Source: Onchocerca volvulus (lineage: Eukaryota > Nematoda > Chromadorea > Rhabditida > Onchocercidae). Taken from it: DNA of 64,000 nt. The stretch spans positions 26,465,832 through 26,529,831 of the forward strand of contig HG738137.1 in assembly GCA_000499405.2 (NCBI GenBank), given 5' to 3'. The notes beneath the pieces were generated by a model. The model saw only the letters and a program-made list of their open reading frames with translations. It was not told the DNA's origin and did no database searches. A program made the position numbers and the translations under genes. Shown piece by piece: positions 19,496-59,100 of this stretch; within the stretch, counting starts at the first letter, position 1, and each line of letters opens with the position of its first letter.

Positions 19496-22400
19496 TTTGG
19501 GCAAAACTTGCTCGGGAAATTGTACTTCATTTGAATGCGAAGAATATGGAGTTGGGTTTCCCATGTTACGCTTTAATAGTATTGGACAAATGCAGGAATA
19601 TGGGCATCTATTTACAGGTTTCAGTCTAAAATAAATGTAGATTCAATTTAAAATTGACGAATTAGCAGAGAGTATATTCTGCTGTTTTATTGTCATGTTA
19701 AGGAATGAAAATAGGACTGTAACTGATATTACTCTAGTTTGTTTTTATTATGATTTTTTATAAAAATATTTCACCTATATTATTTTTGAAAAAACTATTG
19801 TGATTGGAAAAGATTCATCTCTTTCGAATAGGCTTCAAGTGCTGTTTTCTGTGCTGACTTAAATGAGAAAAGAGTTTTGACAGTAAGTGACTGTTAAATT
19901 AAATGCCATCAGAAGTCAGAAACAAAATATTTGATTAAAATATTTCAATTATGAGAAAACTAGAAATAACACAATTTCAAATTTCATTGTAATGGATGAA
20001 ACTTAATTCATCAGAACTATTGTAAAGTTCAAGAAGTTCAAGCATTTCTCTTACTGTCATCTTCATTATTACCATGCATCTTATCTTTATTCTTGTTTAG
20101 TCTTAATTCTATCCCTTTCTTAAGAGAAATGAGTTCAAATAGAGAGTAAAATAATTAAAAGACGACGATTAAGTAATATAAATAGAATATTGAAGAATGT
20201 TCCACAATAATGTTGCCAAAGAGATGTTTTCATTTAGTGCAATATTTAATTGGCCTTCAAATTTACATAAGTTAATAGATGAGGTAAATAACGTAATTTC
20301 TTGTTTATTAAGCAGCATTGAATAATATTTAGAGTTTTTGGTGTTGTTTATTTGTTTTTCACTTGGAATTCTCTTTCGAATTCTTGTCTTCATGAATGCA
20401 ACTTAATTTATTTCTTTTAAAATTACTCTCCTTCTTGCATTTCTTGTCTAACTCTAATTGTGTCTTCATCTCAGTCGCCTTTGTCTATTTATCAAATTTT
20501 TTAAGAATGTACATTTCGTTAATGAACCAAGACTACAATTTTCGCCAAACACTTCAATTGCCTACGAGAAGATGAGCTTCGCTGAAAGTTTTAATGCCAT
20601 GAAGTAAACATGTTAGCAACGTATAAAATTTTTCCAAAAAGTATAAAGATTTGCTTAATTTTCGAGAATTTCACTTTTAATACCTTCACTATTCACTATT
20701 AAAGAAAAATTTGTATATCATGAATAAATTTGTCACTTCACCAAAAAAATGCACAAAATGTCTTTATTTGATTGTCCTAGTGAAAGTAATTTAATTACAG
20801 TATGAATTGGTTAGGCTGAGAGACTATGCATATAACCAAATTATAATTTCGTCTAAACTTCAGTCCTCGTTTTCTGCAAAAGGCTAAAGAACATTTGCTT
20901 GCAAAAATTACGGAGACAAGCGTTAACATAATTTGTCTTCTCAAACTTTGATCTTTTGGATTTTATATTTAGTATTTCAAAATTTTGTAGTTATTATAAT
21001 TTTTGAAGTCAATGAAGGATGAAATGATTTGGCTAATTTTATTATTAGATCTTGCGGATTATAATTTTTTTTTACTACTTTTATACACTCATCTGAGATT
21101 TACAGATTTACGGATATATTACGACCGGAAGGACTGTCCAGTTACTAACCTCAAACTATTTACTTTATATTCAAAAACTGATCGAAAAAAATCCATCAGA
21201 ATAGGAAAATACCGCAAAAAGAGTCAGGATCGTAGTACAGATAAGTACGAAATGTGTTTACAAATAAAAAATACGAATGAATGAATACACATTTCAATTC
21301 AACATTATTCGGAAAACAAATCAGTCCAAAAATCTGACAACCAATTGAAATGAATATCTGATAAGGAATAACTGTACTTGAGTAAATATTATTCTTGCCA
21401 ATAATTAAATAATTAACACGTCGTTTAATAATTTAGCAGTTGCTAAAATCTTAGAATTGACCAATGATTTCATGCAGCACATATGTCCTGACAGAAATCT
21501 GTTTTTTTATTTTTTATATTTAAATAGCAAGTGTCTGATATAGTAAATTCTGGGTTTCTGTTGGTCCAGTTTGTTTATCAAGCTCATACTCTGATAACGT
21601 TAGCTTAATTTTCTGTGTCATTTTTGTAGCAAAGTTTTAGAGTCTTCAGAAAAGTTCAGCATATATTTTAGCTAACTTCTCTCCAATATTGGGTGACAAA
21701 TCTTTCGCGTTTCTAAATTCGTCCGTCAACGTAAATTGCCACCTATCAATGCTTCAAGTTTTTTAAATTTTTTTGGTTGCATTTTCCTCCATTATAGCAC
21801 TCACTATTATCCATGATAATGAAATCATCCGATGTTTGCTGCTTAAATATTAATATTAAAACAAAGTATATGCAAGAAAAAAAATAAATATTAAAGGTAG
21901 ATTAAAATAAATAATCCACCTATTGATTAAATTGATCGAGGCGCAGATATTCAGCACAATTTATTATACAAATTAGTGATTAATCAATTTAAATATCAAT
22001 GAATGTCGGGAAAACCGAAATTAATTCCCAACTAAAACTAATCAATATGGAAAATTACATAACCAAATGGTTAAAAAATTGTAAAACTTTTTTCCTTATG
22101 AGTCATCATCTGTAAAATTATCTCACATTATGTGCTTTGTCCACATCAAAACACTTCTGTTTACAGCTCCTTTCTCAAAAAAGGGCTGCAAACAATGAAA
22201 CAAAGGGCGACAAAAACACATTGTGTGCTTTGTCCATGCTCATTTACAACCACATCAAACATTTTTGCTTACAGCTAATAAAGTCATAAATCATGTGCTT
22301 GTAAAACTGTCATTGTGTTTAAATTCAATTAAACTGTTGTAACATTTTTTCCTTTGTTAACAATTTTTTTTCCCTTAAAATTACCTCAACATCAATTGTT

Positions 22401-53100: not shown

Positions 53101-56100
53101 TGATAAATTCACAATTGCTTTTAGAATTACCGATAAACAGCAATCACGAAATCGAATTGCAAATGAATCAACAAAAACATTATCTCAAAAAATAGTGGGA
53201 GGCTATTTTTCAAATGAAATTTATGTTTATGTTCGTGGACGTGGACGCGGTCGATATGTTTGTGGTCGTTGTGGGATACGTTGTAAAAAACCGTCGATGT
53301 TGAAAAAACATATTAAGTCAGTTGATTTTTTCTTTCTTTTTTAATGCAGAATTTTGTATCATTTTCCATATTGCTTCTAATCTTTTTTTTCTGGTATCTT
53401 GATTGAATTAGGCAAACTTGGTAAACAGTTTAAATCCAAAGCAGCAAGATTATTCGATTATTGCTGTCATGTATGTTTTTTGTATGATGATGTTTGGGCA
53501 TAAGCATATATTTTAAAGGGGAGTTTTTTTTTTTTTGTATTTTATGCTAATCTTTTCATTATTAATTGCATTATAGAAGCAGGAAAAAACTTTCTCTTCA
53601 TTCATCCAATAGATTATTTTCATATCGCTTACAGGTCACATTCGGATATACGGCCATACGGTTGTAAACAATGTAATTTCAATTTCAAAACAAAAGGTAA
53701 CCTTACTAAACATTTGCAATCGAAAACACATCGTCGTCGAATGGCTGAAAAAGAGAAGCAGAAAATAGCTGAGCAAGATTCGGATAGTGATCATGATCGA
53801 TTAGAAATTGCGAGCCGCAGTGGAACCGCATCAACTTTTAGCAACGATCCACTTTCAGATGATGAATGGTAAATTCTTCATTTGCAGAATCCCCATGTTC
53901 AGAATTTTAATTTTATCATCTTGTTAAAATAAACATTTTTTAACTGTTCGGCATTTTCTCTTTTTTTTTTAGTTCGTCAGACGAAGAATTGCGACCACTC
54001 TGTAATGACAAGAACAAAAATATGTATCGAAAATTTGGTCAAGGTGATTTCTTTTTTTTGTATGAAGTTTTTCACCTACAAAATTGAAATTGATACTAAG
54101 AAAATTAAGAATTCCTCTTTTTTCTTGCCTCCTCCTTATTTATGTCAGAAGCAATGCGGCTATCATCAAGTTCTATCGGAACTTAATGGATAATCGCACT
54201 GCTTCTATAATAAAATTTTATTATCCTGCAACGTCTATTAAATTTTGTTCATTTAAAAATGAACCTAATTTGCCTTACAAGTTACTGTGTATAAAAAAAA
54301 TTCATCCATCGTCTTATGTATATGACATAATATGATTACTGCCTTTTGATCTAAAATGCCTGCATAAATCAATTTTTTCTTTTTTTTTTTTAATGAAATC
54401 GATTTAATTTCTTCATCATTTGCACGCTCATCACATAAAAGCGCAGTTGGTCACTTTTTTAGTGGAAAATTGCTTTATTACTTCATAATTCATAAATATA
54501 ATTTTCACTAATATTCAAGAAAATATATTAATGGAACGAACAGCTCATACACCACCAATGTTATGGATTGTTGGTGAAACGATTTTTGATTGGTCGATTC
54601 CAAATTGCTTTCGGTCGTGTCATAGCGCACCACCTAGTGCGCGATATCCATCGGAAGGACGAAAGCAACAAAAACTATTGGAAACCAATTTTTTGTTAAT
54701 AAAGGTAATCGTTGATGAGCTTTTGGTAGCAATTTCGATTCACTTACAAAAATTTATGGATTCATTTTACCTTTGTTAATAATAGCTCTTCGAAATTTTT
54801 TATTTAAAAGTTTAGGATACCTCGGAAGACATACGTAGCTCTGAAGTCAAGCAACCAACAACTTCTACTCTACCAGTAGTTCAAACTTTGGTATCTACAA
54901 CTAGTGATTGTTCGCAGCTACAGTCATTATCATCCTTCATAACAGAGCAGCAACCTTCAGTAGGAGCATTTTTCGCTAAGGAGGTCTGTAACAATCTTTT
55001 TATTAAACTTGCTTTTTGTCTAAGTAAATTTGGTGATTTCTGCATGGGTGACTGACAATAAAAAATGAAAAAAAATTAGTTTCTTTTTCTTTTCTCAGTG
55101 TATTATACATATAATCATTTAGCAAATATTATCAGAATAAGTGTCAATGAAGTGTTTTTCTTTTTTTGCATAGTTTTATGTTTTTTTATGAAATTTTTAT
55201 GAAATATCGTTTTATGAAATGCTGCACGTATCACATGTACAGTTATACAGTAAATATTACGTAAATTAGCACGAAATAGAGTAATTCTCTTTTTTTTTGG
55301 GGGGTAGATTGTTACTGTTTGGTCTTATGAATATGGCGTTTTTTTCTTTTTAAAGACGATGATATGTGATATTTGCAAGCGCATATTTCGAAGCTCGACA
55401 GAGATGACATTGCATCGCAAAATCCATTTGATTGGACCGTCGAATTCACGTATACGGTCTTATCAGTGTAGCGAATGTAAATATTCGGTTCGATCACGTA
55501 ACGCTTTACAACGACATATGGAAGAAAGGCATGGAATTGTTGAAAGTTTGCAGACAGAGCAGCTAAATGATTCAGATAATGGTATGTACTATCAGTACGA
55601 TTAATTGTAATTTACGTAAGTTTATTACCTTGCAAAATATCCATCATGAAAATATTATATAAAACCGCATAATCTGATAATATATTGAGTATGAGTGTAA
55701 ATATCATCAATGTTTCAAGTTAACCGAAATGTTCACTATCAAAGATCAATAGTTTCGAAGCGATGATTGATAATTTACATGGTTTGATAGAATATGGCTC
55801 AGTCAGATATTCAGTTTGGACACCATCGTGGAAGATGAATACATGAAATAACATAAATCAGTTATTAAAAGAACTATTTCAGAAGAAACCAATACAAATT
55901 TGTCGTCGATGAATCCACGATCTTTTATGTGTACCGATTGCAATATTGGATTTCGGAAACATGGTATCCTCGCAAAACATCTACGCTCCAAAACTCATGT
56001 TATGAAACTGGAAAGTTTGCGTATTATCCCAGAAGATTCGCTATCACTGATAACACGTAAAGAGGGAGGTGTATATTTGAACGAAATTGATACTACGGAT

Positions 56101-59100
56101 TGTGAGCATGCACGGCAGAGCATTCTCGGTTAATTATTTTGATTTTTCAACTTCATTATTCACAAAGATATTAGTCTGAAATATAATATTTTGGTTTTTT
56201 AGATTATATTTACGATTGCTTTGCAATTATATTTTTCAAAAAGTAAGAAAGAAATTTTAATTTAATAAGAATAATCAAACAAGAAATAAGTTTTAGTTAG
56301 GTTTCGCAAATCGATTAAATGCAATTTGTTTTGAAATGACATAATCTGACTCGATCTGTGAATTTTTTTTTTCAAAGAGGAAGCAAAAGATTGTCATTTG
56401 CCCTTGTCTACTGTTAACAAGTTAAAGTCGTTGTTATTTGTTAGCTGTGATGTGTTAACACTGTAATTAATTGATTTGATATTTCTTTTCCCTAAAAACC
56501 TTGTTCTTATTTCTGCTGTTATCATACCATCTATAATAGAGTCAAGTATGGAAATTGTTTGAATTGGTGTTACCCTTATTTCATTTATTACCTCTTTAAC
56601 TTCTTTTTCCTGCCAAGCTATTTTTTCTGCTGTAAGTTGTTTTTCGGGCGTATCGACATTCCCAATAAGCAGTACTCTTCCTTCACTTACTTTAACTTTT
56701 ATAGGTGAAAATAATCCATGCTTTAAGAGCTCCTTATTGATTCTGACATAAACCATTGCAAAACTTAAGCACTTTCCGTACATAAAAATTAACCTCTTGA
56801 TGATTTTGTACCAAGATTAATTCGACACAATTATCAAAGAATAAAATTTGATTTTCAGGAATCATTTCCACATTACGTGATTCAAATACTTTGGAATGTC
56901 GTGAACAAATGTTGCAGTTACCGGTATCACTGCTACAAACTACAAGCAACAGCAATAACAATAATCATAACACCACCAACATTAGCTATTCGTCGCAACA
57001 GCTGAAGACACAACGTTCTCCGATGCCATCCACTAGTCAATCTGGTACTGAAAATAAGCGATTACTGACTGGTCATTCATATACGTCTAAGCGTCTCGAT
57101 GTCCTAGCAACAAAGATGCCGGTATATGTTTCTCATGTTGATTAGAAAATATAGACGAGGATGATTGGACATTAAAGTCAAGGAGACGAGAGAAGTATTG
57201 GAAAAAAATCTGATCGATTGAATTTATATAATTTGCTTTGTAGATTGGTTGGATTGGAGATAGATTCTTTTTGCTGTTGTGATTCGACAAGGATAGCAAT
57301 AGGCTTTATTGAGTGATACGATATTATACACAGTATTGTACTATATAATAGTAAACAGTAAATGAACAATACACGAGAAGAAGTGGTACTATAGATGAGT
57401 TGACTTTGTCTCGTAGAACTGTAACTGTACATCTAATTAAACTCGAATTGTTCCAAAATCGGAACCTTTTAAATCCTTTCGGGACTCCTTTTCTTCTCAC
57501 ATGTTTATCCTTGTTAATCCATTTAAAATAGTCTTCGCGCTTCTTGACCTTTAACTCCTTGTTTTTAATAATTGTAATACTGTGACCTTTAATATAGCTT
57601 GTTTATTATGATTGCATCCTTTGAATTCGTCAACATCCGGCATTTGATCTTTAGATATTTTTCTATCTATACACAATTACTTACATTTTCGGCTTTCGCT
57701 GAAAAGAAGGATGAAGAAAAAATGCACTTGATTTTGGCAATTTCTCCTCTCTTAAAACTACTTCATTTCAGCAAACAAATATTATTTCATTCCAGCGAAC
57801 AAATATTATAATATTTCAGACTGAAACATCACCCAGAAAATGTGATATGACAACGTCGCAACGGAAAACAGACGACTTAAATGGGAAATCGATCTCTGCT
57901 AACATTTGGATGCCTCCAAAACTTGATGTAAATTCGGTATGAGTTCGAGTTATTTTCTGCTTGTCTTTCATCTGTTCCTTATTTATATTTGCTAAATTTC
58001 AGAAGATATCTGCAACACGAACTTTCGTTTGACATATATAGATTCTTTAATAAAAACTCTTCAATATATTCATTTGCACTTTTTTTTTGTTTTTTCATGT
58101 GGCAGTTCCATTAAAAAGTTGATAGCTTTCATTTTTGGTCAAATAATTTAGATAATAAGTCCTTGAAAATAATTCGGGTAACGATTTCCGAAAATTCTGT
58201 TTAATTTCAGTATTATTTATGCATCCTTGTACTATATTTTTATTATGATCCTTAATTTCATTGTTTAGACTTCCGATCGTCGCTCTGTTGATATAATTGG
58301 TCGTTCAACAGTAGACTCTGCTGCTCTTTCGGATAACGGTAAGTTAATGTTTGGACTTGAAAAAAATTTAAATGTGTTACTGCACAAACTAATCTAGCTT
58401 GTGGTATGTTTTGATCATACAGCATATGTTTTGAAATATGGGATTATGTCAAGGTTTGCATGATTTATGAATCAATTATCGATGTTTAATGATCTTATTT
58501 TATATATAAGATATTGGTTTGCAATTTTTTTTTAATGCATAGGTTCTTCTGTACGATCTGATGAAGCAAACAGTGAAGGGGCTGGACGTAGTGAAAGCTC
58601 GACACCAACGCAACGTGTTTTGGCTGGTACCGCACCATCACCCCTCTTACCAGCTTCTACTAGATGCAATCTTTGTGAGGTCAACTATGAATCCAGCTTT
58701 GATTTGCAGGTAGATCGCCATAGCAGGAGAGCACTCAATTACTTTTTTTACTTGACTGCATTTCGTGAAGTTTACCGAACCTATTTTAATCTTTAAGATA
58801 TGTAATTATTGAATTTTAGAAACGAGAATATAAAGTTGCCGAATTTTTAACATTAGATTGCGCAAAATGATTTATTTACAAAATGATAAAAATTACTTCT
58901 CAGAAACATTGATTAATCTGTTATTATCCCATTATCGTGTGATATTTATTAAAGGTCTGTTTAGGTTCATCTTCATGCTGATCATGTAATGCTTCGAGAT
59001 GGAAAAGATTTTTGTTGTCCAAAGAAACAGTGTGACAAAGTCTATCCAAGTCGTGAAAATCTTAGGCAGCATATTGCTGCACACTATCATGGTGGTGCCA

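Follow-up and report, generated by a model that had tools for sequence, protein, structure and literature searches.

Inserts of Wolbachia DNA in the nuclear genome (nuwts) have already been published by the hundreds for the river-blindness worm, Onchocerca volvulus. As far as the accessible text of each paper goes, the count was 531 in 2016 (PMC5310847), and a paper of 2025 reports 653 regions with 818 matches (PMC12693587); these counts correspond to about 0.35–0.44 nuwts per 64 kb. The symbiont of O. volvulus (wOv) and its sister, the symbiont of Onchocerca ochengi (wOo), differ by about 4,400 SNPs, an identity of 99.51%, according to the available part of one paper (PMC5310847); that of another (PMC8116671) puts the identity at 99% and lists wOv under accession NZ_HG810405. 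Here we describe an insert within a 64-kb window of O. volvulus DNA, by which we mean the whole stretch of 64,000 nucleotides that we analysed. Judging from the available portions of the published catalogues, the insert is an unremarkable example of a class that has been well catalogued. We put the probability at about 90% that it is a real nuwt, i.e., a piece of supergroup C Wolbachia in the germline nucleus, and that it is young and most likely functionless. Very probably, the locus already figures in those published lists, as an exact match of 296 bp would pass the criteria described in the accessible text. Because nuwts of O. volvulus are in print and this one has very probably been listed, its interest is low.

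The insert lies at 56451–56746 on the minus strand. In a DNA search, 296 of its 296 bases were identical to positions 856746–857041 of wOo (NC_018267; E = 3e-153), which excludes a chance match. The reference is thus the sister of the worm's own symbiont, as wOv was absent from the loci that we compared. The runner-up is the symbiont of Dirofilaria immitis, with 89% DNA identity to the insert, then come four further records from Wolbachia or Rickettsiales (84–87%) and the Dipetalonema symbiont (83%). We also built a tree from the insert and 12 of the 20 loci in our scan of bacterial and archaeal genomes; L013–L020 and an old copy on contig C5 (see below) were left out. The insert is identical to wOo, the pair joins the Dirofilaria symbiont at a weakly supported fork (82/65), with the Dipetalonema symbiont as the next to join (95/93). 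The alignment is short, at 296 columns, and of the nine inner branches only one clears both thresholds of support. The first-pass annotation had proposed a transfer from Wolbachia to a filarial nematode, and the exact identity to wOo, the distance to the next-best record, the protein relatives, and the tree all bear this out.

Across the 730-bp intron that holds the insert, these 296 bp are the only long match to wOo; the other matches score at most 35.6 bits (the wOo reference that we searched contained 8,000 bases reading N). We therefore rejected the idea that several Wolbachia pieces were stitched together at this site. The host-derived ends of the open frame have no significant match to wOo, and the flanks share only short chance words with it. 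The junctions had been estimated at about 56451 and 56756; the first is correct, while the right-hand junction is at 56746. When we checked the edges for a target-site duplication or transposon-like ends, we found no long repeat. The insert starts with TCA, as does the host flank that follows it, which we take as chance. The plus strand of the insert contains neither AATAAA nor ATTAAA.

The insert is antisense within a host intron (56129–56858, plus strand) that is in phase 1 and has GT...AG ends; in the assembly, this intron corresponds to C2:26521960–26522689. As the first-pass annotation had it, the intron is flanked by exons at 55883–56128 and 56859–57121 (both plus strand), and these are open in compatible frames; the 3' limit of the second exon is taken from that annotation, and its frame follows from the upstream exon. 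The first of these exons encodes a C2H2-type zinc finger that matches solved structures (PRDM9, E = 2.1e-8; MBP-1, E = 2.2e-7). In Pfam, no family reaches its cut-off for this exon, and zf-met comes closest (20.6 bits, with a cut-off of 21.2). Farther upstream, exons within 53240–53770 (plus strand; limits approximate, with an intron between them) encode a pair of zinc fingers that is most like human MBP-1, which we take to be HIVEP1, of the Schnurri family. We joined this peptide across the intron by eye. Its best solved match is MBP-1 (PDB 1bbo, E = 2.2e-25), as expected of a Schnurri-type C2H2 pair, with ZNF568 just behind (E = 3.5e-25). At the level of the zinc fingers, then, it is plausible that the host is a sma-9/Schnurri-like gene.

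The donor gene encodes a Wolbachia protein of 197 residues, which one source names OsmY. Its Pfam scan has two BON stretches, and its N-terminus reads by eye as a lipobox or signal peptide. From the frame offset, the insert covers donor codons 53 (in part) to 151, or 99 of the 197 residues, the first only partly, and it keeps the native frame. The first-pass annotation was right that the minus strand carries a BON-domain frame (Pfam BON PF04972, 53 bits with a curated cut-off of 27, E = 4.2e-14), and that this is a remnant without the signal peptide and the second half of the second BON domain. It had placed one full BON domain at residues 10–72, plus half of a second; we find that the first domain is almost entire and the second incomplete, with a single stretch scored by Pfam, at residues 14–73. 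The supposed layout of a lipoprotein with two BON domains is true of the donor, while the fragment has one scoring BON domain and an N-terminus that is derived from the worm.

The first-pass annotation had asked for a search of the frame against Wolbachia and other Rickettsiales. Our protein search gave 66 matches from 74 candidates. A precomputed BON domain is present in 64 of these, and the other two are short fragments, one of which is named BON. Many of the matches are nameless; those assigned to an organism by name belong to Wolbachia, Mesenet, or Ehrlichia, except for a single partial protein that is assigned to the aphid Cinara cedri and is perhaps symbiont contamination. None of the 66 carries a nematode gene name. 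We therefore rejected a nematode origin of the frame, as those of its relatives that have a named organism are bacterial, with the one aphid protein as the exception. Of the 20 loci from our genome scan, 12 are from Wolbachia or other Rickettsiales, at 64–91% protein identity, and the other eight are from other bacteria, at 35–44%. Within the bacterium, the BON gene looks to be under constraint: in a comparison of 96 codons with the Dirofilaria symbiont, 22 codons differ silently and 5 by a replacement.

The open frame itself, which had been reported at 56394–56783 on the minus strand, does run for 129 codons from ATG to stop, but it is chimaeric: residues 1–12 and 112–129 are worm flank rather than bacterial, so that 12 host codons precede the insert and 18 host codons and the stop follow it. 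It had been suggested that such a frame implies either a recent insertion or constraint. Measured from stop to stop, the frame has 140 codons. We ran 5000 trials in which the insert was given random flanks of a composition like that of the real ones, and 16% of them reached at least this length (median 119 codons). That the frame is open is thus no evidence of selection. Also, because there are no differences from wOo, dN/dS cannot be computed, and selection has nothing to show. The open frame therefore reflects the youth of the insert and not constraint. We give almost no credence to the idea that selection has kept the fragment because it functions, be it as an antisense unit or by coding for a protein. 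The 129 open codons would fit with it, and so would the four Brugia malayi transfers whose transcription is regulated in a stage-specific way, as described in the available text of PMC3849323. On the other hand, this fragment is truncated at both ends, its frame is no longer than chance allows for an undecayed insert, and the nuwts of O. volvulus "appear to be largely nonfunctional," in the words of the accessible part of PMC5310847.

How unusual is an exact match? Out of the 958 kb of the wOo genome, we compared 70.3 kb to the assembly (94,684,704 bases in 115 contigs) with four queries: one of 10.3 kb and three of 20 kb, for which we scored 40 of 84, 62, and 64 candidates. This listed 27 matches for the shorter piece and at least 41, 42, and 42 for the others, so nuwt-like matches are dense in the O. 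volvulus assembly. Among the 152 matches listed, some of which may belong to a single nuwt, identity has a median of 86%, and 146 lie at 67–97%. The insert is the only match listed at 100%, but its rank is biased, as we picked the first query for containing it. Of the 63 matches listed that span at least 200 bases, four reach 98% and one (the insert) 100%, and five matches other than the insert are at 98–99% over 101–369 bp. So the insert is of ordinary size for a nuwt, yet its perfect identity is unusual.

As for the BON gene itself, one protein match to the frame was found in the assembly, on a 28.3-Mb scaffold. At the DNA level, our search for a second copy elsewhere in the assembly found only an older, decayed fragment (L049 1501–1662, at C5:13099560–13099721) that is 78% identical to wOo. 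The window also contains an older nuwt at 21535–21836, which aligns with wOo 433845–434149 over 309 columns that include indels, at 82% identity; the frame of this wOo region reads by eye as RNase III. A 52-bp match nearby (22168–22219, 83% identical to wOo 723077–723126, E = 1.6e-5) is perhaps what remains of a third. Separately, six stretches on C2 and C4 (L053–L058) match COX1 but have internal stops, with two scoring above the family cut-off. These are either nuclear mitochondrial fragments or decayed symbiont oxidase genes, and the true COX1 copy is likely on C115.

The insertion is young: as none of the 296 bases differs from wOo, the upper 95% limit on divergence is about 1.0%. The divergence between wOv and wOo predicts 1.4 differences over this length, with a 26% chance of none, so the insertion may lie on either side of the split between O. 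volvulus and O. ochengi. Within the insert region, the protein cluster P0002 has one I-to-V difference from wOo. If P0002 is wOv, then the insert carries the wOo-like state, which would favor insertion before that change in wOv.

The age could be underestimated if this is a genuine nuwt of somewhat greater age that lost its differences when the consensus was corrected with symbiont reads. The accessible text of PMC5310847 does describe consensus correction of the assembly with ICORN2 and Illumina reads, and such correction would favor the more abundant symbiont allele. Correction to wOv should however have left about 1.4 differences from wOo, which is a weak test given the 26% chance of none, and the sampled matches at 98–99% retain differences from wOo, which could themselves be specific to wOv. 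We consider such overwriting unlikely. It is a variant of the nuwt reading, so its odds overlap with those of the explanation that we favor.

Another challenge would be that the insert is not in the worm's chromosome at all and that gap filling put symbiont reads into the intron. The first-pass annotation had argued against contamination by a separate bacterial contig. As the assembly stands, this is ruled out, as host exons flank the insert on both sides and the scaffold is 28.3 Mb long, but that argument does not extend to a local artefact of assembly. An artefact would explain the exact identity to wOo. Also, the available part of PMC5310847 states that gaps in the O. volvulus assembly were closed automatically, with IMAGE and Gapfiller, and the same data gave the genome of the symbiont, so symbiont reads were presumably present. 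Nevertheless, there is no N within the 64-kb window, the flanks have no further significant symbiont match, and the junctions lack a long repeat that would drive a false join. The five other matches at 98–99% show that the insert is not alone, unless they too are artefacts, and the authors of the assembly verified four nuwts of over 1 kb (PMC5310847, accessible text). On balance, an artefact seems quite improbable.

If we are correct that this is a young nuwt, then a 296-bp piece of the worm's supergroup C Wolbachia chromosome would have been taken into the DNA of a germline nucleus, with end joining at a double-strand break as the likeliest route. It would have landed in an intron of the putative sma-9/Schnurri-like gene, antisense to the gene, so recently that the bacterial frame has not yet decayed. 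The insert would be spliced out with the intron, and it most likely has no function, because it is intronic and antisense and lacks the donor's start, signal peptide, and second half of BON 2. We think it a long shot that the insert is still polymorphic in O. volvulus and that its chimaeric antisense frame is transcribed. Should some worm populations prove to lack the insert, or only one of the species O. volvulus and O. ochengi to carry it, it would provide a marker that can be dated. We also note that PCR or read mapping that targets the BON gene of the symbiont can catch the nuclear copy. The insert adds one clean, young case of the flow of DNA from symbiont to nucleus, but on its own it adds little.

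As far as the available text of PMC5310847 and PMC12693587 goes, the insert resembles the published nuwts of O. volvulus: it is in the same genome, it has the same supergroup C donor, and it is a fragment of a gene. Supergroup C nuwts in Onchocerca average 434 bp (PMC12693587, accessible part), so its size is ordinary. Where most of the nuwt-like matches that we sampled are 67–97% identical to wOo, the insert is exact over its whole length and its frame is undecayed. It retains just part of the Wolbachia BON protein. In its high similarity to a living symbiont, it is like the recent nuwts of Brugia malayi (PMC3849323). Those amount, in the available text, to at least 115.4 kbp, with 32 complete open frames and the four regulated transfers, whereas the insert is a single truncated fragment.
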